DNA of 51,423 bases from an uncultured delta proteobacterium (lineage in GTDB: Bacteria; Desulfobacterota; Desulfovibrionia; Desulfovibrionales; Desulfovibrionaceae), in contig CAIMRY010000032.1 in assembly GCA_903843965.1 (NCBI GenBank), forward strand, positions 1-51,423. The letters run 5' to 3'. The notes beneath the pieces were generated by a model that saw only the letters and a program-made list of their open reading frames with translations, was not told the DNA's origin and did not search any database. Both the position numbers and the translations under genes were made by a program. Shown here one piece after another: positions 5,849 to 16,924 of this stretch (the stretch's first letter is position 1; every line of letters starts with the position of its first letter).

Positions 5849-6808
5849 CTACCTCAAGTACACGTCAACGCTGTCCATGCGGTTGTGCGCGATTTCTGCC
5901 GCGACCGCTTGTTTCGCCTCCTCGTGCGACAAGCCGGACTCGACGGCTTCGTGCATGCGCGACTGTGCGAAGCTGTGCTTGAGCCCGTGCGTTCCACGGC
6001 CAGGCGCATACTGCCCTGTCGCCCTGGCGGCGGCTTCGACGGCGCGCAGGAACGTGCGGTACGGTGAAGCGAGTTGGCCGTGCTCAACGATGTGCGCTTG
6101 GAGTTCGCGGTACGTCTCCGGCTCTAGGAAGTGTTCTGTTTGCTTCCCGCCTTTCTCCGTGACCGTGATGCGGCCGACGGCATCGCCTGAGACAGGGTCC
6201 GTGCCCATGCCGAGCAGATTTGCGGCCGTGAGCGGGTTGCTGCCGCGCGCTGGAGCGCCGACGCCTTCCGTCCTGCAACCGGTTTCACCCATGAGGCGAG
6301 CCTGTAGGCGCAGAGCAGGCTCATAAATGGCGACGTAGAGGCCGGGAGGGTCAGGATACGCGCGAGTCGTGTAGCCGCCGGAACGTGGCGCCAACTCCGC
6401 GCGCCAGTTCGCCTTCTCCTCTGTCAGAACCGTGCGGATGTCCGCAGCCGAGTCGCCGCCGTGGCGCTCCGCGTAGACGTCCAGCGCGTGCGAAAACTTC
6501 GTGAGCGCCGAGATTTCGCGCTCGATGGTCTGAAATGAACCCCCGGCGCCACGCAGCGCCTGTCCTCTGCTAGCGATGTAGGCGCGGGCGAGACCGGAGA
6601 CGCGGCGCACGTCGCGAAGGTCGGGCAGCCCGGCGCGCTGCAGGAACTCCACGAAACGATGGATGTCCTTTCTGTATACGGCCCAAGTGCCTGTGCCTCG
6701 GATGAAGCGCTTGTCCACGGTGCCCTTCTTCCTTCCAATCGCACGGATGCCGCCGATGAGCGCCTCCGCTTGCCCGTGCAAATTCTTTGGCCATCTATTC
6801 GTTCCCAT
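5849..6808 (-). CDS. Tyrosine recombinase (phage-integrase family, Integrase_1-like)
   Basis: About 319 residues. The N-terminal SAM-like DNA-binding region (about 30-130) is followed by a catalytic domain with Arg179 (in GCRTEG), Lys222 in the beta-hairpin (EKGGKQTEHF), His274, His308 (in IAHNRMD) and the nucleophile Tyr317, three residues from the end. The usual HxxR box reads HGLK, so the second catalytic arginine is Lys277. I start at the ATG at 6808, preceded closely by GGAGGA; upstream in-frame extension to 6955 looks non-coding. It leads a four-gene minus-strand operon of unknown proteins. Role by family: integration or excision of the surrounding element. Whether the Lys variant is active is open. 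Confidence 0.8.
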   Translation of the reverse strand: MGTNRWPKNLHGQAEALIGGIRAIGRKKGTVDKRFIRGTGTWAVYRKDIHRFVEFLQRAGLPDLRDVRRVSGLARAYIASRGQALRGAGGSFQTIEREISALTKFSHALDVYAERHGGDSAADIRTVLTEEKANWRAELAPRSGGYTTRAYPDPPGLYVAIYEPALRLQARLMGETGCRTEGVGAPARGSNPLTAANLLGMGTDPVSGDAVGRITVTEKGGKQTEHFLEPETYRELQAHIVEHGQLASPYRTFLRAVEAAARATGQYAPGRGTHGLKHSFAQSRMHEAVESGLSHEEAKQAVAAEIAHNRMDSVDVYLR

Positions 6809-7260
6809 GTCCTCCGCCCTTCCGTTCCGATCCGTTCCGCCGCCAGGTTCGTTGAGTAGTGTGCTCTTTCTGCGAGCATGCTCGCGCGCCGAGCTTGTCG
6901 GCATGTGCGTCGAGGAAGGTCCTCGGCGCCGACGGTAGCAACTCCGCCGATCCAATTTCTCTGCAGCTCCTTCAGCAGGTGGTTCCGGACTGGACCGTCC
7001 GTGGTTTCGCTCGCGCTATGCGAGCGTTTCTGGGCCTGTGCAGCGACTCAATGGTCGCCACAAACACCGTGGTGGGCACTTCAGTCATCCCGTCGAGCAG
7101 GCGACCGTTCACGAAGCGCAATGCTTCGAAGCCCAAACAAAACAGAGGCACCGAAGAGCATCCCACGCCCTACGAAGCGGCAGCAAGTCCAGCGAAGGGG
7201 GGCACAAGGAAATATCAGAGGCAGGGGGCGGTGGAGAGAAGAAGCGCTTGGATGAAATCC

Positions 7261-7709: not shown

Positions 7710-8717
7710 ATGCCCAAAACTGCTAATCACGACAGCCTCGCCCGTCTGTTCGAGCTTCTAAAGCTCTTGCCCTCCAAAGCACCAGGTATCACGGCCAAGG
7801 AGCTTTGCAACAGACTGGACAAGAACGGCTTCTCTGTTTCCAAGCGGACCATTGAGCGAGACCTGATCGAACTCTCGCGCCTTTTTGGGCTGGAATGCAA
7901 TGACAAGGGGTCCCCTTACGGTTGGCACTGGATGGCAGGCAGAGGGGTGGATCTGCCCGGATTGACCATGGCCGATGCGCTCTCACTTCACATCGTGGAG
8001 GAGTTACTCCGGCCGCTCTTGCCACACGCATTGATTGAACCGATGGAGAAACGGTTTACCGAGGCTCGAAAGAAGCTAGAGGCGCTTTCCGGCAGCAACC
8101 CAAATGCACGTTGGGCGGAAAAAGTCTGCCATGTACCGCCCACGCTGCCCCTTGTTCCGGCCAGAATCGCACCCGGTGTCCTTGCTACCATCCAGGACGC
8201 CCTACTGCATGACCTTCAAGTTGATGTCGTGTACAAGAAGCATTCGGCTGAGGAACCGGTCCCAATGCGGCTTCACCCACTTGGGCTCGTGCAGCGGGGG
8301 CCGGTGGCTTATCTGGTGGCTAGAGCGCTCGATTATTTGGATGTCTGGATCTACGCTGTCCACCGAATCAAGGAAGCCACGCGCACCAGTGAGCCGGTGG
8401 CGCGCCCTGAAGGGTTCTCGCTTGATGGATACGTGAAGGAAGGGCGACTCCAGTTCGGCAATGGGGACACGTTGCGGCTTGTAGTCCTCGTTTCGTCCGA
8501 GGTTGCCGCATACTTGGCAGAAACGCCTCTGGCGGAGGACCAGCACTTGACCACCAAGGGAGAACGTACGAAGCTGACAGCCACGGTCTTGGATTCTTGG
8601 CAGCTCAGTTGGTGGATTCTTTCGCACGGGCCAGAAATCGAAGTGCTCAAGCCCGTGAGGCTACGCAAGCAGATCGCCGCCTCCCTGCGGGAAGCCGCCT
8701 CACTATACGCTGACTAA
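7710..8717 (+). CDS. WYL-domain transcriptional regulator (HTH plus WYL plus WCX)
   Basis: About 335 residues. An N-terminal winged HTH (about 8-65, with the recognition-helix segment SKRTIERDLIEL near 44-55) is followed by a WYL domain at about 165-245, where the WYL triplet reads AYL within HPLGLVQRGPVAYLVA, and a WCX-type C-terminus to about 330. Proteins of this layout (the BrxR/CapW group among them) act as repressors, often of anti-phage operons, sensing nucleotide or nucleic-acid ligands. AAGGAA lies 5 bases before the ATG. It heads a co-oriented set with an exonuclease (27-base gap) and a PD-(D/E)XK nuclease, which makes it the likely controller of that set. Family firm; target and ligand inferred. 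Confidence 0.85.
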   Translation: MPKTANHDSLARLFELLKLLPSKAPGITAKELCNRLDKNGFSVSKRTIERDLIELSRLFGLECNDKGSPYGWHWMAGRGVDLPGLTMADALSLHIVEELLRPLLPHALIEPMEKRFTEARKKLEALSGSNPNARWAEKVCHVPPTLPLVPARIAPGVLATIQDALLHDLQVDVVYKKHSAEEPVPMRLHPLGLVQRGPVAYLVARALDYLDVWIYAVHRIKEATRTSEPVARPEGFSLDGYVKEGRLQFGNGDTLRLVVLVSSEVAAYLAETPLAEDQHLTTKGERTKLTATVLDSWQLSWWILSHGPEIEVLKPVRLRKQIAASLREAASLYAD

Positions 8718-8744
8718 GCCCAAGGGCATTCAGGGAGGATAAGC

Positions 8745-9284
8745 ATGACATCATTTGCCGCCATCGACTTTGAGACCGCAGATTACAAGCAGGACAGCGC
8801 ATGTTCTGTAGGGATAGTTGTGGTGCGTTCAGGGAGGATTTCCACGCGGTACCATTCCCTGATACGCCCGCCCAGAAAACGCTTCGTCCCCATGTTTGTT
8901 GATCTACACGGCATCAGTTGGGAGATGGTGCAGGAAAAGAAAACCTTTGCCGAGGTATGGCCAGAGTTCGCGCCGATTTTGAATAGCGTTGACTTTGTGG
9001 CAGCACATAATGCCCCCTTCGACATCTCGGTGCTGAACGCCTGCTGCCTTGCGGCGGGAATCACCCCGCCGGGACTTGAGGTCTGCTGCACGCTCAAGAT
9101 CGGAAGGCAGTTGTGGAAGCAGCCCAAGAACGCGCTACCGGACCTTTGCCAGCATCTAGGTATCCCCTTTTCCAGGCACCACGACGCCCTGGCCGATGCC
9201 GAGGCATGCGCGCAAATCGTTAAGCGCGCCTTTAAGGCAGGCTGGACATTCTATCCCGCAGGAAATATTATTACAAGTGTGTGA
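8745..9284 (+). CDS. DEDDh-type 3'-5' exonuclease (DnaQ/epsilon-like)
   Basis: About 179 residues, a stand-alone exonuclease domain. Exo I is AAIDFET (Asp8, Glu10), Exo II is HNAPFD (Asp93, with His88), and Exo III is HDALADAE (His146, Asp151), giving the full DEDDh set of two-metal catalytic residues. By family it trims single-stranded DNA or RNA from the 3' end. It is much shorter than polymerase-fused proofreaders and has no polymerase partner next to it; its neighbours are a WYL regulator and a PD-(D/E)XK nuclease, so a defence or repair role within the mobile region is more likely than replication proofreading. A GGGAGG sequence precedes the ATG. Confidence 0.85.
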   Translation: MTSFAAIDFETADYKQDSACSVGIVVVRSGRISTRYHSLIRPPRKRFVPMFVDLHGISWEMVQEKKTFAEVWPEFAPILNSVDFVAAHNAPFDISVLNACCLAAGITPPGLEVCCTLKIGRQLWKQPKNALPDLCQHLGIPFSRHHDALADAEACAQIVKRAFKAGWTFYPAGNIITSV

Positions 9285-9376
9285 GATATATCAGCTCAGT
9301 GGATCAAGGAACGGTCCTCAAGCGGAGCTTTTACGAGCTGGCAACCCTCAACAGCATCAGCAACCAATGTTTGCCC

Positions 9377-9391
9377 GTTTGAAGTTCAAAC
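9377..9391. promoter_or_regulatory. 15-base palindrome just before the nuclease ribosome site
   Basis: GTTTGAA, one base, TTCAAAC, ending a few bases before the GGAGA ribosome site of the gene at 9407. It could be an operator, or a weak hairpin affecting translation. Confidence 0.35.
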
Positions 9392-9406
9392 TCCCGGAGA
9401 AATAAA

Positions 9407-10333
9407 ATGTCTTTACTTCAAAAATTATATCACTGTAGCAAGAGTGAAATGCAAGAAAAATATGAAGACTATATCACTGAAGCTTACGCTTATATCCTTG
9501 CGACGGCCAAAGAAATCTGCCCTGATGTCTTTGTGGAATATCTAAAAGGCGCATATTCCATTGACAAAAAATTGCGATATATAGACTCTATCGAAATAGA
9601 GACGCAGCGCTTAGGCATATGCCATGAATTTGAAAAACGTGACAAGCCGGATATGGTAATCATGTCTACAGAACTATGTATTATCTGTGAACATAAGGTA
9701 AACTCACCAGAGACAAACGAACAAATTAAAAGGTACAAGGAATGCGCTGACATTATATGGAAAAAAGACGCCTGCGCAGAAGTTAAAGTTGTATTTACCG
9801 GGAAATTCAAGAATCAAAAACTACCTTCTGCGGAGCCAAACGTAAGATTGTCATGGGCCAACATATGCGACAGGCTTGAAGATTACTTTAAAAGCGTCGA
9901 CAAAATGAACGTAATAATACGTGACTTCACTGAATTCATAAAGGAGATAGGCATGAGATACGAAAAAGTTTCCAAGGATGCCGCACATGGCACGGAGAAT
10001 TTTTTTAAGTTATTATACTTTATCTATGCAACAGCAAAAGAACTGTCTGACAATGGAAACTGTGCGCAATCGAACCCTACTGAAAATGATACATACTACT
10101 TTTCAGGATACAAATTCGGTATAAATAAACGTAAATATTTTATTGGTATCGTGGACAATGATGCAGGAAGGGGATCAATTACTTTAAATGAGGTACCTTG
10201 TTCTGACATGCGTGTGAAGTATTTTAATATGAACGATGTTTTTTTATCAAGCGAAGCAGATAGCCAAATGCTCGAATTGAAATCTTGGGCAATAGCAACA
10301 ATTCAACACTGGAATGATATGCGCAACACATAA
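9407..10333 (+). CDS. PD-(D/E)XK superfamily nuclease
   Basis: About 308 residues. The nuclease core shows KPDMVI (Asp82) followed 12 residues later by ICEHK (Glu95, Lys97), i.e. D-x12-E-H-K, with a preceding conserved-type Glu in the EIETQRLG segment near 62. This pattern matches the PD-(D/E)XK family of metal-dependent endonucleases found in restriction and defence genes. The C-terminal half (about 185-300) is a separate domain I do not recognise and could hold target or partner recognition. The gene is strikingly AT-rich compared with everything around it, a sign of separate recent transfer. GGAGA lies 9 bases before the ATG. Nuclease fold fairly sure; substrate unknown. Confidence 0.75.
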   Translation: MSLLQKLYHCSKSEMQEKYEDYITEAYAYILATAKEICPDVFVEYLKGAYSIDKKLRYIDSIEIETQRLGICHEFEKRDKPDMVIMSTELCIICEHKVNSPETNEQIKRYKECADIIWKKDACAEVKVVFTGKFKNQKLPSAEPNVRLSWANICDRLEDYFKSVDKMNVIIRDFTEFIKEIGMRYEKVSKDAAHGTENFFKLLYFIYATAKELSDNGNCAQSNPTENDTYYFSGYKFGINKRKYFIGIVDNDAGRGSITLNEVPCSDMRVKYFNMNDVFLSSEADSQMLELKSWAIATIQHWNDMRNT

Positions 10334-10356
10334 CCGATGCTGCATAGGTCGATCAC

Positions 10357-10578
10357 ATGAACGGCAGTGATAAGCACAATAGCAATTCTTCAACAAAGAA
10401 GCCTGACTTGGATTTTAATCCTTGGGCATTAGACGTGATTGAGCTGGTAGCGAACAATCTCTGCGTGTCCTCTCCAGAACTGAACTCCGCCTATCGCCGC
10501 TGCCTTTCGCTGCTCAAAAGTGAAACGGTCAAGCAACGACGTCAGAGGCTGCGTCTGGTAAGAGGCCAGGACAACTAA
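10357..10578 (+). CDS. Small hypothetical protein downstream of the nuclease
   Basis: About 73 residues, polar N-terminus and a basic C-terminus ending in an Arg-rich helix, no recognised family. It follows the PD-(D/E)XK gene by 23 bases on the same strand, but its ribosome site is weak. It ends 11 bases before the convergent ABC permease gene. A small partner of the nuclease is possible but unsupported. Confidence 0.4.
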   Translation: MNGSDKHNSNSSTKKPDLDFNPWALDVIELVANNLCVSSPELNSAYRRCLSLLKSETVKQRRQRLRLVRGQDN

Positions 10579-10589
10579 GCCCGGATCTC

Positions 10590-11381
10590 TCAATCCACCA
10601 CTTGTCGCGCCAAGTTCCCAATCTCTCGTGCCCGTGCAAGCATACGTGAGAAGTACAGGCCCCCGGCTGCAAGCCAAGGCACGTTCAGCAGGAATGCCAT
10701 CGGAAGGTCCCAAGGGCCAGCATCTTTCCCTGCCAGCGCCGCACGCATACCCTCGAAGACGTGTGTGGACGGTAAGCACATTGATACCCACCAGAGCCAA
10801 CGCGGCAGGACGTCAGCTGGGTAGAACACTGCGGACAAAGGTTCAAGAAGGAAGGGAACGCCCCAAATCAGCGCCTCAGCCCCACGCCCAAAACGGAAGA
10901 TCATTCCCATGGTCAGAAGGCCCACGGCCCAGCCAAACACGAGCAGGCAGCCATAATACGGAATCAAAAGTAGCCCTGCGTCGAACAGGTCGAACCCGTA
11001 GAAAACAAACGCCATGAGCATCAAGAACACCGTGGTCACGGTCGACTTCAAAAGACCCATAACGCAGGTTGCGGCGCCAATCTCTAGTGTGGATATTGGC
11101 GAGATGAACAGGTTTATCACGTTGCCCACCCAGAACTCTTCCGTGATCGAGTAGGAGATCGCCTGCTGCGAGCGGTAGAGCACTTCCCAAAGTATGAGAG
11201 ACCCGAGGAAGAACGCGCCCGCACCAGGTAGAGCCACTCGCTCTATGTATTTAGTAAAAAATCCCCAAACCAGAAGCCCCATCACCGGCCAGAATACGAT
11301 TTCCATGTTGCGCGCCAAGCTTCTCTTGTGCAGGTAGACATGGCGCAGCACGAGGGCGTAAATTCTTTGCCACATGTTCAA
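10590..11381 (-). CDS. ABC-2-type transporter permease
   Basis: About 263 residues with six predicted membrane segments (for example MEIVFWPVMGLLVWGFF near 26-42, a VFLMLMAFVFYGF stretch near 116-128 and AVGLLTMGMIF near 152-162), the layout of NodJ/DrrB-type export permeases. Its ATG overlaps the stop of the ATPase gene by 4 bases (ATGA), so the two are translationally coupled and should form one exporter with homodimeric halves. By family it exports a lipid, polysaccharide or hydrophobic drug. It is the last gene of the operon headed by the DnaE-like protein. Confidence 0.85.
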   Translation of the reverse strand: MNMWQRIYALVLRHVYLHKRSLARNMEIVFWPVMGLLVWGFFTKYIERVALPGAGAFFLGSLILWEVLYRSQQAISYSITEEFWVGNVINLFISPISTLEIGAATCVMGLLKSTVTTVFLMLMAFVFYGFDLFDAGLLLIPYYGCLLVFGWAVGLLTMGMIFRFGRGAEALIWGVPFLLEPLSAVFYPADVLPRWLWWVSMCLPSTHVFEGMRAALAGKDAGPWDLPMAFLLNVPWLAAGGLYFSRMLARAREIGNLARQVVD

Positions 11382-12148
11382 TTCCTCCCATCCCCGTTGC
11401 CCGCCGTTTCCACGTCACCACCTCGAGCGATCCTCACGAACACACCTTCGAGGCTCTTTTCGTTCATTGCGAGTTTGACCTCGTCGGGTGTTCCGCGGGC
11501 CACCTCGTGGCCATGATGCAGGAAGATCACCCGGTCGCAAAGTTCCTCAACCTCATACATGTTGTGTGATGTGTAGAGCATGGCCATGCCACGCTCACGC
11601 CGCAATCCCTGCAGGGTTTGCCGAACAACGTCCGCAATGTCCGGGTCGAGTGACGCAGTGGGTTCGTCCAGGAACAGCACCTCAGGGTCGTTGAGCAGGG
11701 CTTTACAGAGATTAAGCCTAGTCAGTTGGCCGCTGGATAGCATGCCCGTGACCTTGTGCCTGGCTTCTGTGATTTTAAGCCTTTCTAGAACCTCTTCGAT
11801 CTTCTTTTTCCGGTTCTTGACGCCGTAGAGCAAACTGAAGACGTTCAAATTCTCCCACACCGTCAGGTTGGTGGGCATGCTGGTATACGCCGAAGAGAAG
11901 TTCACCCTTGAGAGCACCTCACGGCGTTGCCGGGTGGGGTCCATGCCGAGAATTGAGACTTCGCCAGCGTCGTAAGTCGTCAGGCCCAGCAAGAGTTGGA
12001 TGGTGGTGGTCTTGCCAGCGCCGTTAGGTCCCAACAATCCCAGGATCTCGCCTTGGACGAGATTGAACGTCAGGCCGTACACGGCCTTTATATTGTCGAA
12101 AGTCTTACCAAGCTCTCTTGTTTTGACCACCGTTGTCGGAAATTTCAT
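11378..12148 (-). CDS. ABC transporter ATP-binding protein (DrrA/CcmA-like exporter ATPase)
   Basis: About 256 residues. Walker A GPNGAGKTTT near 39-48, signature LSSGQ near 137 (instead of LSGGQ), Walker B VLFLDEPTASLD near 156-167 and switch His in LYTSHN near 191. The usual Q-loop glutamine is not evident at its place; a VNFSSAYTSMP segment is there, a pattern I associate with a subgroup of ABC-2 exporters. GAGAGGG precedes the ATG. It couples with the permease downstream and follows the DnaE-like gene with a short gap, so the three are probably one transcript. Confidence 0.88.
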   Translation of the reverse strand: MKFPTTVVKTRELGKTFDNIKAVYGLTFNLVQGEILGLLGPNGAGKTTTIQLLLGLTTYDAGEVSILGMDPTRQRREVLSRVNFSSAYTSMPTNLTVWENLNVFSLLYGVKNRKKKIEEVLERLKITEARHKVTGMLSSGQLTRLNLCKALLNDPEVLFLDEPTASLDPDIADVVRQTLQGLRRERGMAMLYTSHNMYEVEELCDRVIFLHHGHEVARGTPDEVKLAMNEKSLEGVFVRIARGGDVETAGNGDGRN

Positions 12149-12231
12149 TTTACCCTCTCCCCGCTCCGGTGCCCTTTAGCTGTACGTTGAGAACGCTTCG
12201 GTCAGACCATAAATGTCTAGCGCGTCTGCCT

Positions 12232-13914
12232 TCATGAGCGACTCCACGACGAGCTTGGAGATACCGCGCACGACTTACCGATGTTGAGACTAGCAATGCG
12301 TCTACCAAAGCTCCACTGTGGGACAAACTCACCTTCTTTCGTCTTGCATAATGGCACGTTGCCATCAAATGGACGGTCAGAGATGAAGAGGCTGTGGTTT
12401 AAAACATGACACTGGATCGGAAGTGTAGCCAGCTTACTCGAAATATTCAGTAATTTGTCCACCAGAAAATGGTATTTGTACATGTTCCGAAGCTCATGAT
12501 TTTCCTCGACTGCAGAATTGATGTCTTGCTTGTCTGGGATGAGTTTGGTGATGCGCTTAATCGCGGTGGTGCTCATGCATAAAGCTCGGCCAACTTTCCG
12601 AACGGCTTCCTTTGTCCCCATATTGTTGAACCATGCCAGCTCATGCGCAACATGGTCGCGACCATACTTTTTGATCAAATAATGTTCTAAATCTATGGGC
12701 CGACCTTCTGAAACATAAATTTTAACATATGAATTTCCGGATGGCTCAAACTCCAACTCGTTGAGAATTGGATCTAAGGTGGTGATTTGCAGCGACCAGT
12801 CCACAAGAGATCCATATGATGTGCAGAATACGGTGATGTTGTTATCTGTTGTCCACCGGATAAGGTCCTGCGTGAACAGGTGGTCACTGCTAGAACCCCG
12901 CTTGTCTATGCTCCCAAGTTCGTGTTCGAGGCGCTCCCAGTATTGGCTCTCGTCAACCTCAGGTGTGAAGTCCGCCAGTCGCTTCTTTAGGCCTTCACGG
13001 GCCAATCGCCTCAGCTCCGCGTTAGGGCTCACACCCTTGGGAAGCGCGTAGGCCGGAAAGTGTCCATAGCTCAAATCCAACTCAATGTTGCAGCTTTCGG
13101 CGATCCGAACTGCGTTCTCGAAAGCTTCTTCGGGGCAGTAGTAATCAGAAAGCGCCATCTGCATTTCTTTTTTGCTCATGAAATAGCGATCCTTGTTGCA
13201 CAAGCGTGGAGTGTCTAAAATTGTGTGCTGATCGCCGATGCACTGTAAGAAGTAATGGGCCTCTGCGTCCTCGCGAGTGAGGTAGTGGCAGTCATTGGTC
13301 GCAACGAGTGGCAGGCCAGCCATAAAGGACACTCCAACTAGAATCTCTTCGCCGATATACTCGTCGGTGATGTCGTCGTAACCTTGCACCTCCAAATAGA
13401 ACCGGTCAGGGAAGATCTTTGCGTACTCGCGAGCCACAGCAACGCCAGAGTCAAATCCCTTGGAGAGTAGCGTATAGTTAACCTCTCCACACAAGCCGCC
13501 GGAGAGCGCGATGAGCCCTTCTCCGTGCAGAGCGAGTAGTTCTTTGTTGACACATGAATGGTGACCGCTGGATCCCTCAAGGTGGCTGGCAGTAACAAGC
13601 CGGATGAGATTGTGGTAGCCTTGGTGGTTCTGGGCTAGCAGCACGAGACGGAAGGCGTTCTTGCCGGAACTGGCCGCCTCGTTGTCTGCATCTAGGCAAG
13701 GGGATATGTAGACCTCGCACCCAATGATGGGCTTGATACCGATCCGCAAGGCTGTCTCATAGAATTCCAGCGCACCGTGAAGATTGCCGTTGTCAGTGAG
13801 GGCCACGGCAGGCATACCGAGTTCTTTTGCTCGGCGACAGAGGTCTACGACCTTAATGGTACTGTCAAAGAAGCTGTATTCGCTGTGGCAGTGCAGGTGC
13901 ACGAAATTTTTCAT
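12232..13914 (-). CDS. Shortened DnaE-like protein: PHP domain and fragments of the DNA polymerase III alpha core, catalytic site lost
   Basis: About 560 residues against about 1,150 for DnaE. Residues 1-310 are a clear DnaE PHP and linker: FVHLHCH (4-10), GCE (65-67) and TNDCHY (206-211) are kept, but the metal-site TDHGN reads TDNGN (41) and SGCL reads SGGL (140). Residues 325-460 align to the polymerase N-terminal region, ending in KKYGRDHVAHELAWF and VGRALC blocks. The segment where DnaE carries its catalytic aspartates (PDFDID) is instead SYVKIYVSEGR near 395-405. After about 535 the palm/fingers core is missing. A shifted frame (to 12176) encodes VVESLMKADALDIYG, like the DnaE helix-hairpin-helix region, so there is a frameshift near 12,265. 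TAAGGAGA precedes the ATG at 13914. It heads an operon with an ABC exporter. Either a decaying polymerase or a repurposed non-catalytic DnaE. Confidence 0.75.
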   Translation of the reverse strand: MKNFVHLHCHSEYSFFDSTIKVVDLCRRAKELGMPAVALTDNGNLHGALEFYETALRIGIKPIIGCEVYISPCLDADNEAASSGKNAFRLVLLAQNHQGYHNLIRLVTASHLEGSSGHHSCVNKELLALHGEGLIALSGGLCGEVNYTLLSKGFDSGVAVAREYAKIFPDRFYLEVQGYDDITDEYIGEEILVGVSFMAGLPLVATNDCHYLTREDAEAHYFLQCIGDQHTILDTPRLCNKDRYFMSKKEMQMALSDYYCPEEAFENAVRIAESCNIELDLSYGHFPAYALPKGVSPNAELRRLAREGLKKRLADFTPEVDESQYWERLEHELGSIDKRGSSSDHLFTQDLIRWTTDNNITVFCTSYGSLVDWSLQITTLDPILNELEFEPSGNSYVKIYVSEGRPIDLEHYLIKKYGRDHVAHELAWFNNMGTKEAVRKVGRALCMSTTAIKRITKLIPDKQDINSAVEENHELRNMYKYHFLVDKLLNISSKLATLPIQCHVLNHSLFISDRPFDGNVPLCKTKEGEFVPQWSFGRRIASLNIGKSCAVSPSSSWSRS

Positions 13915-14138: not shown

Positions 14139-14171
14139 AAAAAAAAGGGTTACGAAGTTACTCGTAAACCC
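14139..14171 (-). terminator. Intrinsic terminator of the tRNA-Ala fragment
   Basis: On the minus strand an AAAGGGTTTACGA-type stem (14171-14162, pairing with 14155-14147, one bulge) is followed by eight T. It starts about 10 bases after the CCA end of the tRNA fragment, as a native tRNA terminator would. Confidence 0.75.
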
Positions 14172-14180
14172 TTTTCTTTC

Positions 14181-14232
14181 TGGTGGAGCTGAAGGGAATT
14201 GAACCCACCGCCTCTTGAATGCCATTCAAGAG
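14181..14232 (-). pseudogene. 3' half of a tRNA-Ala(GGC) gene, probable attachment-site remnant
   Basis: Read on the minus strand, the anticodon arm is CTTGA-ATGGCAT-TCAAG with anticodon GGC, then a T arm (GTGGG, loop TTCAATT, CCCTT) and the acceptor strand CAGCTCC-A-CCA, which fits tRNA-Ala. The 5' half (acceptor GGGGCTG, D arm) is absent upstream, where unrelated sequence begins, and the T stem has one mismatch. A tRNA 3' half starting at the anticodon arm is what tyrosine integrases typically leave at an att site. It lies at the compositional border between the accessory and core regions. Confidence 0.65.
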
Positions 14233-14349: not shown

Positions 14350-15567
14350 CTACGACGACAGCACTTCCAGTATCTCGATCCGCGCGGCCTGGCGCGCCGG
14401 GTAGGAGCCAGCGGCCAGCCCCAGCAGCACCGACCCGGCCAGGGTGCCGAGCGTCAGCACCGGCTCGAACACGTACGGAAACCCGGCCAGGGCGCAGACC
14501 AGCTGCACCAGCCCCACGCTGACCAATGCGCCCAGGGCCCCGCCCGCCCCGGCCATGAGCCCGGCCTCCAGCAGGAACTGACGCACGATGTCGCGCCGGC
14601 TGCCGCCCACGGCCCGCCGGATGCCGATCTCCATGCGCCGGGCCTGGACCATGAGCACCATGATCGACAGGATGCCCATGCCGCCCACGGCGAAGGAGAT
14701 GGTCGAGGTGATGGCCCCCAGCGTCTGCACCAGGTCCAGGGCCTCGCGCCGCAGCTGCATGGAGTCCGCTGCGGTGAGCAGGCTGAAGTCGTCCTTCTTG
14801 CCATCCAGGTGGTGGCGCAGGCGCAGAATGTCTGACGCGGCCGCGCGCACCTGGTCCAGGTCCGCGCCCTCGGCCAGGCGCAGGTAGACCCCGCTGATGA
14901 AGGTCTGGTTGGCCGCGCGGCGCAGGTAGGTGGACAGGGGCATGAAGGTCTGCTCGTCCTGGTCCGCGCCGGTCAGGTCGCGGCCCTTGGCCTCCATGAC
15001 GCCGACCACCACGAAGCGCGAGCGGAAGATATACACCTCCTGGCCCACTGCGGCCTCGGGCCTGCCGAAGAGCCGCTCGGCGATCTTGCGGCCCAGCACC
15101 AGCACCTTTTCCTTGTCGTCCACGTCCTGCTGGCGGATGAACCGGCCAAACTCCGGGTGGAAGCTGCGGATGTCCACGTAGGCGGGCCAGGTGCCCATGA
15201 ACTGCGTGGTCACCGTGACGGACCCGAAACGGATGGGGTTGGTGCCGTAGTAGTACGGCGCAAAGCCCAGCACGCCGGGCACGCCCCCGGCCAGGGCCTC
15301 GGCGTCGGGCACGGTGAAGTTGCGCACGAACCCGGAAAACCGCGCCGAGCCGCCGCCCTTGCTGAAGCGCACCTGCCCGGCCATGGCCGCAAAGAGATTC
15401 GGCCCCAGCTTCTCGGCCTCGGCCTCGGCGTTCTTGTACATGGCCTCGGACACGTGCTGCACGCCGTTGAAGGACAGCGCGCCCAGGAACACGCCGAGCA
15501 TGGCCAGCACCGCGCGCAGCTTGTGCGCGGAAAGCGAGGCCAGGGCGATCTTGAGGTCGAGCAGCAT
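14350..15567 (-). CDS. MacB/FtsX-type ABC transporter permease
   Basis: About 405 residues. One N-terminal membrane helix (about 13-35), a large periplasmic MacB_PCD-like domain (about 40-270), then three C-terminal helices of the FtsX domain (about 285-395), with the characteristic RRMEIGIRRAVG segment near 310. Proteins of this kind do not pump through the membrane but transmit ATPase motion to the periplasm for lipoprotein or toxin handling. No ATPase partner is adjacent on either side, so the partner gene must lie elsewhere or the gene is an orphan. I start at the ATG at 15567; a TTG 12 codons upstream gives an unlikely N-terminus. Confidence 0.8.
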   Translation of the reverse strand: MLLDLKIALASLSAHKLRAVLAMLGVFLGALSFNGVQHVSEAMYKNAEAEAEKLGPNLFAAMAGQVRFSKGGGSARFSGFVRNFTVPDAEALAGGVPGVLGFAPYYYGTNPIRFGSVTVTTQFMGTWPAYVDIRSFHPEFGRFIRQQDVDDKEKVLVLGRKIAERLFGRPEAAVGQEVYIFRSRFVVVGVMEAKGRDLTGADQDEQTFMPLSTYLRRAANQTFISGVYLRLAEGADLDQVRAAASDILRLRHHLDGKKDDFSLLTAADSMQLRREALDLVQTLGAITSTISFAVGGMGILSIMVLMVQARRMEIGIRRAVGGSRRDIVRQFLLEAGLMAGAGGALGALVSVGLVQLVCALAGFPYVFEPVLTLGTLAGSVLLGLAAGSYPARQAARIEILEVLSS

Positions 15568-15639
15568 GGGCGGAGTGTAGCGCCGGGGACGGGCAAAGGG
15601 CAAGGGCGGGGGCGGGAGGGGAGGAGAGAGGGGAGGGGC

Positions 15640-15955: not shown

Positions 15956-16924
15956 CTACAGATCCAGCACCGCGTCCAGGCTCCCGGCGCTCTGGGCGAT
16001 GGCGTCGTTGACATCACCATTGGCGCCCTCCAGGTTCTGGCCCACGAGCTTGGTCAGCACGCTCTTGGGCCCGAGCTCGATGAAGCGGCGCGCGCCAGCG
16101 GCGTACAGCGACTGCATGGTGGTGGTCCAGAACACCGAGGAGGTCATCTGCGCCGTGAGCAGGGCCTGCAAAATGCCGGGGTCGCGCTCGGGCAGGCCGG
16201 TGACGTTCATGCACACCGGGAACTTTGCTGGCTGCCAGCGCAGGCCCGACAGGATGGTGGCGAAGACGTTGGCTGGCTCGCTCATGAGCGGGCTGTGGAA
16301 CGCGCCGCTGACCGCCAGTGGCACGGCGCGGCCCTTGGCCTCTTTCACCAGGCTGGCGGCCAGGTCCAGGGCGGGCTTTTCGCCGCTGAGCACATACTGG
16401 GCCGGGGAATTGTGGTTGGCGATGCGCAGAAACGCGCCGGTCTGCTTCGCAGCTTTATCGACAATGCCCTCCACGACCTCCAGCGGCAGCTTGACCACGG
16501 CGGCCATGCCGTGGCCGGACGACCCCGAAGGGGGGCCAGCGCTAGCCATGAGCTTGCCGCGCTCGGTGACGGCCTTGACCACGTCCTCCACGCTGAGCAC
16601 GCCTGCGGCGGCCAGGGCCGCGAACTCGCCCAGGCTGTGGCCCGCCGCGCCGATGACCGGCATGGTTTCGGCCCTCTGCCGGGCGGCCAGCCACAGGCTC
16701 ACGTTGACCACGGTGAGCGCGGGCTGCAGGGCCCTGGTGTCGCTCATTTCCGGGGCCGGGGTGGCGCCGTCGTCACCCCAATAGATCTCGCGCAGCTTGA
16801 TGCCGGAATATTTCTCGGCCAGTTTCCAAAGGTCCATGGCGGCGCTTTGCGCCTCGGCCACGTCGCGGCCCATGTTGAGCTCCTGGGAGCCCTGGCCGGG
16901 GAACAGAAAGGCGGTGGGAAGCAT
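15956..16924 (-). CDS. fabD: Malonyl-CoA:ACP transacylase
   Basis: About 322 residues. Transfers malonate from CoA to acyl carrier protein at the start of fatty-acid elongation, in the cytoplasm. PGQGSQ at 9-14, the nucleophile elbow GHSLGE with Ser97, and the catalytic His210 in SGAFHS are all present. Length is close to the usual 310. A strong AAGGAGA lies 6-7 bases before the ATG. Its own terminator follows at 15903-15869. It lies 42 bases after radA on the same strand; no other fab genes are adjacent, so it is not part of a fab cluster here. Confidence 0.93.
   Translation of the reverse strand: MLPTAFLFPGQGSQELNMGRDVAEAQSAAMDLWKLAEKYSGIKLREIYWGDDGATPAPEMSDTRALQPALTVVNVSLWLAARQRAETMPVIGAAGHSLGEFAALAAAGVLSVEDVVKAVTERGKLMASAGPPSGSSGHGMAAVVKLPLEVVEGIVDKAAKQTGAFLRIANHNSPAQYVLSGEKPALDLAASLVKEAKGRAVPLAVSGAFHSPLMSEPANVFATILSGLRWQPAKFPVCMNVTGLPERDPGILQALLTAQMTSSVFWTTTMQSLYAAGARRFIELGPKSVLTKLVGQNLEGANGDVNDAIAQSAGSLDAVLDL

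Follow-up and report, generated by a model that had tools for sequence, protein, structure and literature searches.

A truncated dnaE-derived gene on contig C32

We analyzed a 51,423-nucleotide stretch of DNA (here called the window), which is the complete contig C32 (CAIMRY010000032.1) of the 3.56-Mb, 46-contig genome of an uncultured delta proteobacterium of the Desulfovibrionaceae (GCA_903843965.1), focusing on a minus-strand open reading frame (ORF) of 560 amino acids (12232..13914) that derives from dnaE, the gene for the alpha subunit of DNA polymerase III. Based on Pfam and on alignment to the DnaE of the same genome (1159 amino acids, contig C5), the ORF comprises a PHP domain, a linker, the first half of the polymerase and about 24 unrelated residues; 280 of 549 alignment columns (51%) are identical. 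The PHP domain (E = 2.7e-50) spans residues 6-177 (13384..13899, minus strand), with the last two of its nine metal ligands just outside, near residues 208-210, and the DNA_pol3_alpha segment (E = 2.8e-29; profile positions 2-246 of 260) spans residues 300-537 (12304..13017, minus strand). An AlphaFold model is DnaE-like, with a mean predicted local distance difference test (pLDDT) score of 82.9 (below 50 at residues 546-560), PHP scores mostly of 87-96 with dips near residues 75-84 and 114-117, and DnaE chains as top PDB matches; 24 of the 25 rows in the underlying alignment are DnaE, so the model leans toward DnaE. An initial annotation of this DNA held that the PHP and part of the N-terminal polymerase region are kept. 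Both domains are present and Pfam and the model agree on the PHP fold of a functional DnaE1, but what survives of the PHP domain is its fold, three of nine metal ligands being changed. A promoter scan found 1 site, compared to 3.1 expected, and was uninformative.

Both active sites are damaged. Relative to the genome's own DnaE, the catalytic motif PDIDVDF aligns to --VKIYV at a 6-residue deletion, the GPGRGSAAGS loop is altered with 3 residues deleted, and DnaE ~544-860 (~317 codons) is missing; this block includes the third catalytic aspartate. Thus, of the catalytic-aspartate segment that had been described as absent, the part for the first two aspartates is present in degenerate form, and only the later block is gone. 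The ORF has neither the PDxDxD aspartates nor the complete palm, fingers, HhH, clamp-binding and OB regions of a functional DnaE1, and its only match beyond the deletion, to DnaE 861-886, is out of frame. At PHP ligand positions 4, 6 and 7 (numbered as in Table 1 of PMC3666897), the ORF has N, R and G (HHDNERGDH), compared to the full nonet HHDHEHCDH in 29 of 29 functional DnaEs aligned. It does not have the HHDHEH[C/H]DH motif of an active PHP exonuclease, and any deviation from the ligand motif makes a domain 'inactive' under the rule given in PMC12926913.

The end of the ORF is unlike DnaE: residues 537-560 showed no recognisable similarity (232 of 500 shuffles scored as well). In the -1 frame, however, a remnant of 31 codons and a TAA stop (12176..12271, minus strand) includes 26 codons that match DnaE 861-886, with 14 of 26 residues the same as in the own DnaE and a score of 59, compared to a maximum of 42 in 500 shuffles. 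Since this tail still matches DnaE, we conclude that an internal deletion and a frameshift truncated the ORF. Moreover, the frameshift looks recent, because the lost tail is kept at least as well as the in-frame polymerase part (35-50% per 60-residue segment).

A polymerase-dead relative joined to DnaB_C

In a protein search of 288 family genomes, only the window genome (G000) and one other, G061, had two matches at E <= 1e-30 among the matches listed (which reach to E near 1.6e-32), and the frames of all listed matches except the window ORF were open for at least 1008 amino acids. The G061 protein, from another genus, has 1113 amino acids (contig C9, minus strand; 7871-11212 of locus L112) and combines PHP, DNA_pol3_alpha and finger domains with a DnaB_C domain (E = 3e-92) at its C-terminus. 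Its catalytic site has PDIYLDI, and KFDFLGL has become TLELQGV, so it is polymerase-dead; its PHP ligand set (HHNHEHCNH) has lost positions that differ from those lost in the window ORF. Thus, we found no homolog of the 560-residue form with the same deletion, the lone relative keeping the fingers and being fused to DnaB_C. This polymerase-dead relative, together with the signs of selection described below, upholds the view in the initial annotation that the window protein is a polymerase-dead derivative of DnaE and more than a plain fragment.

In its PHP part, the fusion shows 75% identity to the DnaE of the window genome, compared to 62% to the DnaE of its own genome. Along the polymerase part, identity to the DnaE of the window genome drops to 53-64%, whereas two ordinary DnaEs of the family retain 74-88% there. 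The DnaB part is 65% identical to its own genome's DnaB, the best listed match besides itself in 348 genomes. We also note that the fusion's DnaB_C differs at positions kept in two chromosomal DnaBs (VDY to VDN, SQLNR to SQLNY, RESG to REFG and EQDAD to EQNAD) and keeps the Walker A GKT. When the DnaE-DnaB_C junction was searched in 348 genomes, both halves were covered in G061 alone among the matches listed; of the phage and plasmid matches, the annotated ones were mostly DnaB-like helicases. In PADLOC, the fusion matched through its ATPase part only (mad8, E = 3e-6) and the 560-residue ORF matched 0 families. The fusion lies in an 11.5-kb stretch of 51% G+C. Its neighbours are a tRNA-Arg gene, the gene for an integrase of the phage type and a WYL gene, the product of which is 24% identical over 177 residues to the WYL/WCX regulator of the window (7710..8717, plus strand).

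Further searches for closer relatives brought up distant sequences at most. Viral contigs gave 3 loci at 33% identity over 152 residues and one at 24% in protein searches, and 0 matches by motif; plasmid and phage searches gave no close relative, the listed matches being at most 36% identical; and genome contigs searched with the polymerase part held no closer relative. The PHP part, searched against genome contigs, matched 42 loci at 31-43% identity, which we took as ordinary DnaE, more distant than the own DnaE. Separately, short DnaE-like frames of 786-860 amino acids occur elsewhere in the order (G048:C126, G055:C146, G049:C204, G057:C40 and G057:C52), 28-32% identical to the window polymerase part. 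Phrase searches of an open-access library gave nothing on decoy, inactive or DnaB-fused DnaE.

We considered that the ORF might be the remnant of an element-encoded replication polymerase, which copied the island or a plasmid ancestor and was later inactivated. DnaE copies occur on plasmids and phages (3% of C-family polymerases are plasmid-borne in the set of PMC3919608), and the joining of DnaB_C in G061 fits a replication role. Nevertheless, we regard this origin as improbable: the listed plasmid and phage matches reach at most that 36%, compared to 51% for the own DnaE (the trees were without plasmid or phage forms), and the polymerase part is relaxed relative to the PHP, the reverse of an active polymerase.

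Conservation of the two halves is reversed

In successive 60-residue segments, identity between the ORF and the own DnaE was 72, 61, 69, 52, 49, 50, 37, 47 and 35%, compared to 69, 58, 63, 66, 56, 66, 80, 74 and 72% between the own DnaE and family DnaE. The ORF kept 43 of the 55 PHP sites that are invariant in 30 DnaEs, 12 of 15 at 216-300, 25 of 57 at 301-420 and 13 of 26 at 421-536. Likewise, the ratio of polymerase to PHP mismatch against one reference was 1.61 for the window ORF and 1.70 for its G061 relative, compared to 0.59-0.83 (that is, a better conserved polymerase part) in DnaE relatives with more than 15% PHP mismatch; in very close relatives (2-7% mismatch) the ratios scatter from 1.2 to 4.8 and are uninformative. 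The protein branch leading to the window ORF had a length of 0.65 in the PHP and 3.57 in the polymerase part (0.60 and 2.52 with the G061 relative included).

In codon branch models built on 20 or 21 sequences, omega = 1 was rejected on the window branch in all four segments, with twice the log-likelihood difference (2dlnL) at 70-99 for the PHP and 23-31 for the other three. With the G061 relative included, omega on this branch was 0.155 in the PHP and 0.21 in the polymerase part (2dlnL 16 and 19). The G+C contents at first, second and third codon positions of the ORF were.55/.36/.60, vs.65/.40/.94; therefore, most change is at third positions. We also simulated neutral evolution from the own DnaE with substitutions only: by 45% identity the polymerase part was still open in ~0.3% of 1500 runs, and by 66% identity the PHP part was still open in 8%.

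These results bear on whether the ORF is a plain pseudogene, a second dnaE, acquired or duplicated, that was functionless from the start and has decayed from then on. Its active sites are lost, it ends in junk, no relative was found with the same deletion, and compared to its relatives it carries a disabling lesion, the internal deletion plus frameshift (a sequencing error at the shift is possible). In contrast, neutral decay would hit both parts alike or the PHP worse, and simulated neutral frames rarely stay open. Because the PHP outlasts the polymerase half in both members, the reverse of a real DnaE, and because omega = 1 is rejected, plain neutral decay does not fit, and we consider this account possible yet doubtful. 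With synonymous sites saturated, the dN/dS analysis describes a window branch that does not look neutral and is compatible with a recent loss, the frameshift and truncation being apparently late. For this last event, deletion plus frameshift, the decaying fragment that the initial annotation set out as its competing view is probably correct.

The better conservation of the PHP half also raises the idea of a PHP phosphoesterase or exonuclease that dropped its polymerase; PolX-like proteins are known in which the PHP has survived the polymerase (PMC12926913). We think this highly unlikely, since the window ORF has N, R and G at ligand positions 4, 6 and 7, which is 'inactive' by the rule cited above, and since the G061 relative loses other positions, so conservation does not follow the site itself.

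Kinship of the two genes

The window ORF and the G061 protein grouped at 98-100% ultrafast bootstrap support in three data sets, in main trees that left out L025, L026, L030, L064 and L065 (truncation, failed extraction or distance) and L114 (cut 5' end). Approximately unbiased (AU) tests on 20 sequences rejected trees that join the G061 protein to the DnaE of its own genome (P = 3e-5 for the full set, 5e-5 PHP, 5e-4 polymerase). When each gene was placed singly (LG+C10; 15 sequences), both fell, with low support, within one subclade of the window genus (L033/L010/L009). Long-branch attraction of the pair was probed by the single placements and the AU tests, which did not fully exclude it. Moreover, sites changed in both genes were more frequent than expected (36 of 215, compared to 17.9; in the polymerase part, 28 of 114, compared to 18.4), and the motif EYSFxxSTI occurred in a dnaE context solely in these two genes among the genomes searched, 8 loci of the class search and 7 further loci of the phylum search having been checked.

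Genomic context and the ABC-2 exporter pair

The dnaE-derived ORF lies in a region of low G+C (39-56% at 9-14 kb, compared to 62-76% right of 14.5 kb). Just beyond it is the 3' part of a tRNA-Ala(GGC) gene (14183..14230, minus strand), which, taken with the flank downstream of it (14139-14182), is 85-86% identical to two intact tRNA-Ala(GGC) loci of contig C29; ARAGORN found no complete tRNA in the window. A 3' tRNA piece is typically left where DNA has integrated beside a tRNA gene, and this one reads as an integration scar. The two intact genes on C29 (L063, 1092-1167 and 17422-17497) are 16.3 kb apart with a third partial match nearby, possibly a second integration tract.

To the left of the ORF are genes for a Schlafen/AlbA_2 protein, a large serine recombinase, the WYL regulator and a DEDDh exonuclease, together with one for a protein that weakly matches the PADLOC candidate PDC-S26. 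The exonuclease gene (8745-9284) is of lower G+C, and its product is 76% identical to a second copy on contig C33 of the same genome and 61% identical to a copy in G004, which adjoins a homolog of the MacB-like permease encoded at 14350-15603 in the window. The PDC-S26-like protein (308 amino acids; 9407-10333) is encoded in the lowest-G+C part of the window and has no Pfam match; likewise, an ORF at 5849-6955 has no Pfam match and a C-terminal end that looks integrase-like by eye. The right side of the window encodes ordinary chromosomal Pfam families, such as MacB/FtsX, arginyl-tRNA synthetase, rRNA methyltransferase and pseudouridine synthase; the scan there took in 20 of the 21 ORFs picked right of 13.95 kb, of which 7 had no match at E <= 1e-8.

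Downstream of the dnaE-derived ORF and on the same strand, as the initial annotation stated, lie genes for an ABC transporter ATPase (11378..12148, minus strand; 256 amino acids, Pfam ABC_tran) and an ABC-2 permease (10590..11381, minus strand; Pfam ABC2_membrane). The annotated 4-base ATGA overlap is in fact TTGA and exists only if the permease begins at the TTG at 11381 (263 amino acids); the ATG at 11375 (261 amino acids) is better spaced, 8 nt after GGAGG and 2 nt beyond the ATPase stop. Permease matches at E <= 0.001 were found in 20 of 199 family genomes, including its own; 14 of these were weak (E 7e-6 to 1e-3), and the five other genomes had strong matches (55-62% identity in four, 30-33% in the fifth). 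In all five stretches fetched from these genomes (3.9, 12.0, 14.0, 16.5 and 17.0 kb; that of the fifth genome is 3.9 kb), the ATPase was beside the permease, and none of the five contained dnaE. Since five other genomes carry the pair without dnaE alongside, the pair is a unit of its own.

The initial annotation had proposed that the exporter works with the DnaE-derived protein, as a decoy or self-resistance DnaE acting against a DnaE-binding compound. We found no support for such a partnership and consider it very improbable: the shared strand and short spacing speak for it, but the pair recurs without dnaE, G061 has both the pair and the dnaE relative on different contigs, and no antibiotic cluster for a DnaE inhibitor is visible among the 31 window proteins scanned with Pfam. 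These look like mobile-element, transport, regulatory or housekeeping proteins or have no match, and the sole acyltransferase (15959-16924) is a stand-alone domain.

A proposed capture of dnaE by mobile islands

With moderate confidence, we interpret the window ORF as a non-catalytic descendant of DnaE that was captured by mobile islands, the window copy being possibly a fresh pseudogene; about half of that confidence goes to the protein being still, or having recently been, functional as a binding protein. In the order of events that we infer, the replicative dnaE of the window genus, or of a very close lineage, would have been captured by mobile low-G+C islands, where polymerase activity was lost and, in the window copy, PHP nuclease activity very probably as well. 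Purifying selection would have maintained the PHP half as the polymerase half wore away, suggesting a long life as a non-catalytic, DnaE-shaped protein. The joining of DnaB_C in the G061 relative, on an island-like stretch, points to the protein serving as a replisome mimic that would bind a usual partner of DnaE, or of DnaE and DnaB, for which a phage factor, a host partner and the island's own replication proteins are candidates. The window copy would later have lost the internal block and its reading frame, leaving a 560-residue product that may be a shortened binding module or stem from a gene that died recently, with the ABC-2 pair as a passenger. Specifically, we hypothesize a decoy or binding role for the protein.

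Several observations weigh against this interpretation. The group of captured genes has two members only, with none further in the 288 family genomes by protein among the matches listed, and none by motif (exact matches only) in 348 class genomes or 395 phylum genomes (17 of the 395 common to both). With respect to kinship, AU tests only partly rejected non-sister placements (P =.056 and.0017 full,.10 and.011 PHP,.10 and.042 polymerase), gave P =.20 (full),.065 (PHP) and.009 (polymerase) for the window ORF as sister of its own DnaE, and did not separate a pair inside the window genus clade from one outside it (P =.33 for outside, full set). Identical replacements common to the two genes were not above those in ten control DnaEs (8 of 47 compared to 10 of 97 changed sites; at sites changed in both, 8 of 36 compared to 10 of 39), and with no excess over the controls we dropped identical derived residues as proof of kinship. 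With respect to selection, the saturation of synonymous sites made the time estimate run away (up to 4e7) in 2 of 4 segments, such that omega is not estimable there; the rejections of omega = 1 cover the whole branch rather than the present state, and may describe an earlier phase; and omega = 1 was not rejected on the G061 branch for the polymerase part (2dlnL 2.4) or on the shared stem (0.8-1.5). Finally, the frameshifted window copy, with 14 of 26 residues kept in its lost tail, suggests recent inactivation.

A broader and rather unlikely extension is that mobile islands of this family carry non-catalytic copies of the host replisome (the DnaE front half; the DnaE-DnaB_C fusion with its host-like DnaB part) as mimics, for example as bait for phage proteins that take over DnaE or DnaB, or to poison foreign replication through dosage. 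Few bacterial proteins are as conserved as DnaE. If our interpretation is true, it would represent a new use of a replisome part, with both activities shed, the PHP shape selected, DnaB joined and the gene moved between genera on islands, and it would provide a direct handle on further PHP-domain binders and on whether mobile DNA deploys copied replication proteins of its host against phages.

Comparison with known systems

The nargenicin cluster reportedly includes a dnaE paralog for self-resistance. The window ORF resembles that paralog as an additional dnaE in the genome, but the window has no visible antibiotic cluster and its copy is unable to polymerise. The exporter pair shares the ABC_tran and ABC2_membrane domains of DrrA/DrrB-like exporters, but its ATPase scores 211.6 with the drrA model, below the cut-off of 312.45.

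Compared to DnaE1, the window ORF has the PHP and the N-terminal polymerase half in both fold and sequence, but is without the catalytic aspartates, the remainder of palm and fingers, and the clamp-binding and OB parts, and has lost three of nine PHP ligands. The metal-free PHP of the E. coli type similarly keeps its fold with several ligands replaced, and the non-His position 4 and Gly position 7 of the ORF have counterparts in E. coli F44 and G134 (Table 1 of PMC3666897). E. coli alpha, however, polymerises and has the epsilon exonuclease as a binding partner, whereas the window ORF is polymerase-dead; the epsilon-contact Lys-Pro (GIKPIIG) is kept in the ORF, but also in ordinary DnaE. PolX-like proteins and ImuB, as described in PMC12926913, are polymerase homologs without polymerase activity, like the window ORF. 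They belong to other polymerase families (X and Y), and PolX proteins keep the PHP site; ImuB acts in a complex with ImuA and DnaE2 (PMC12926913).

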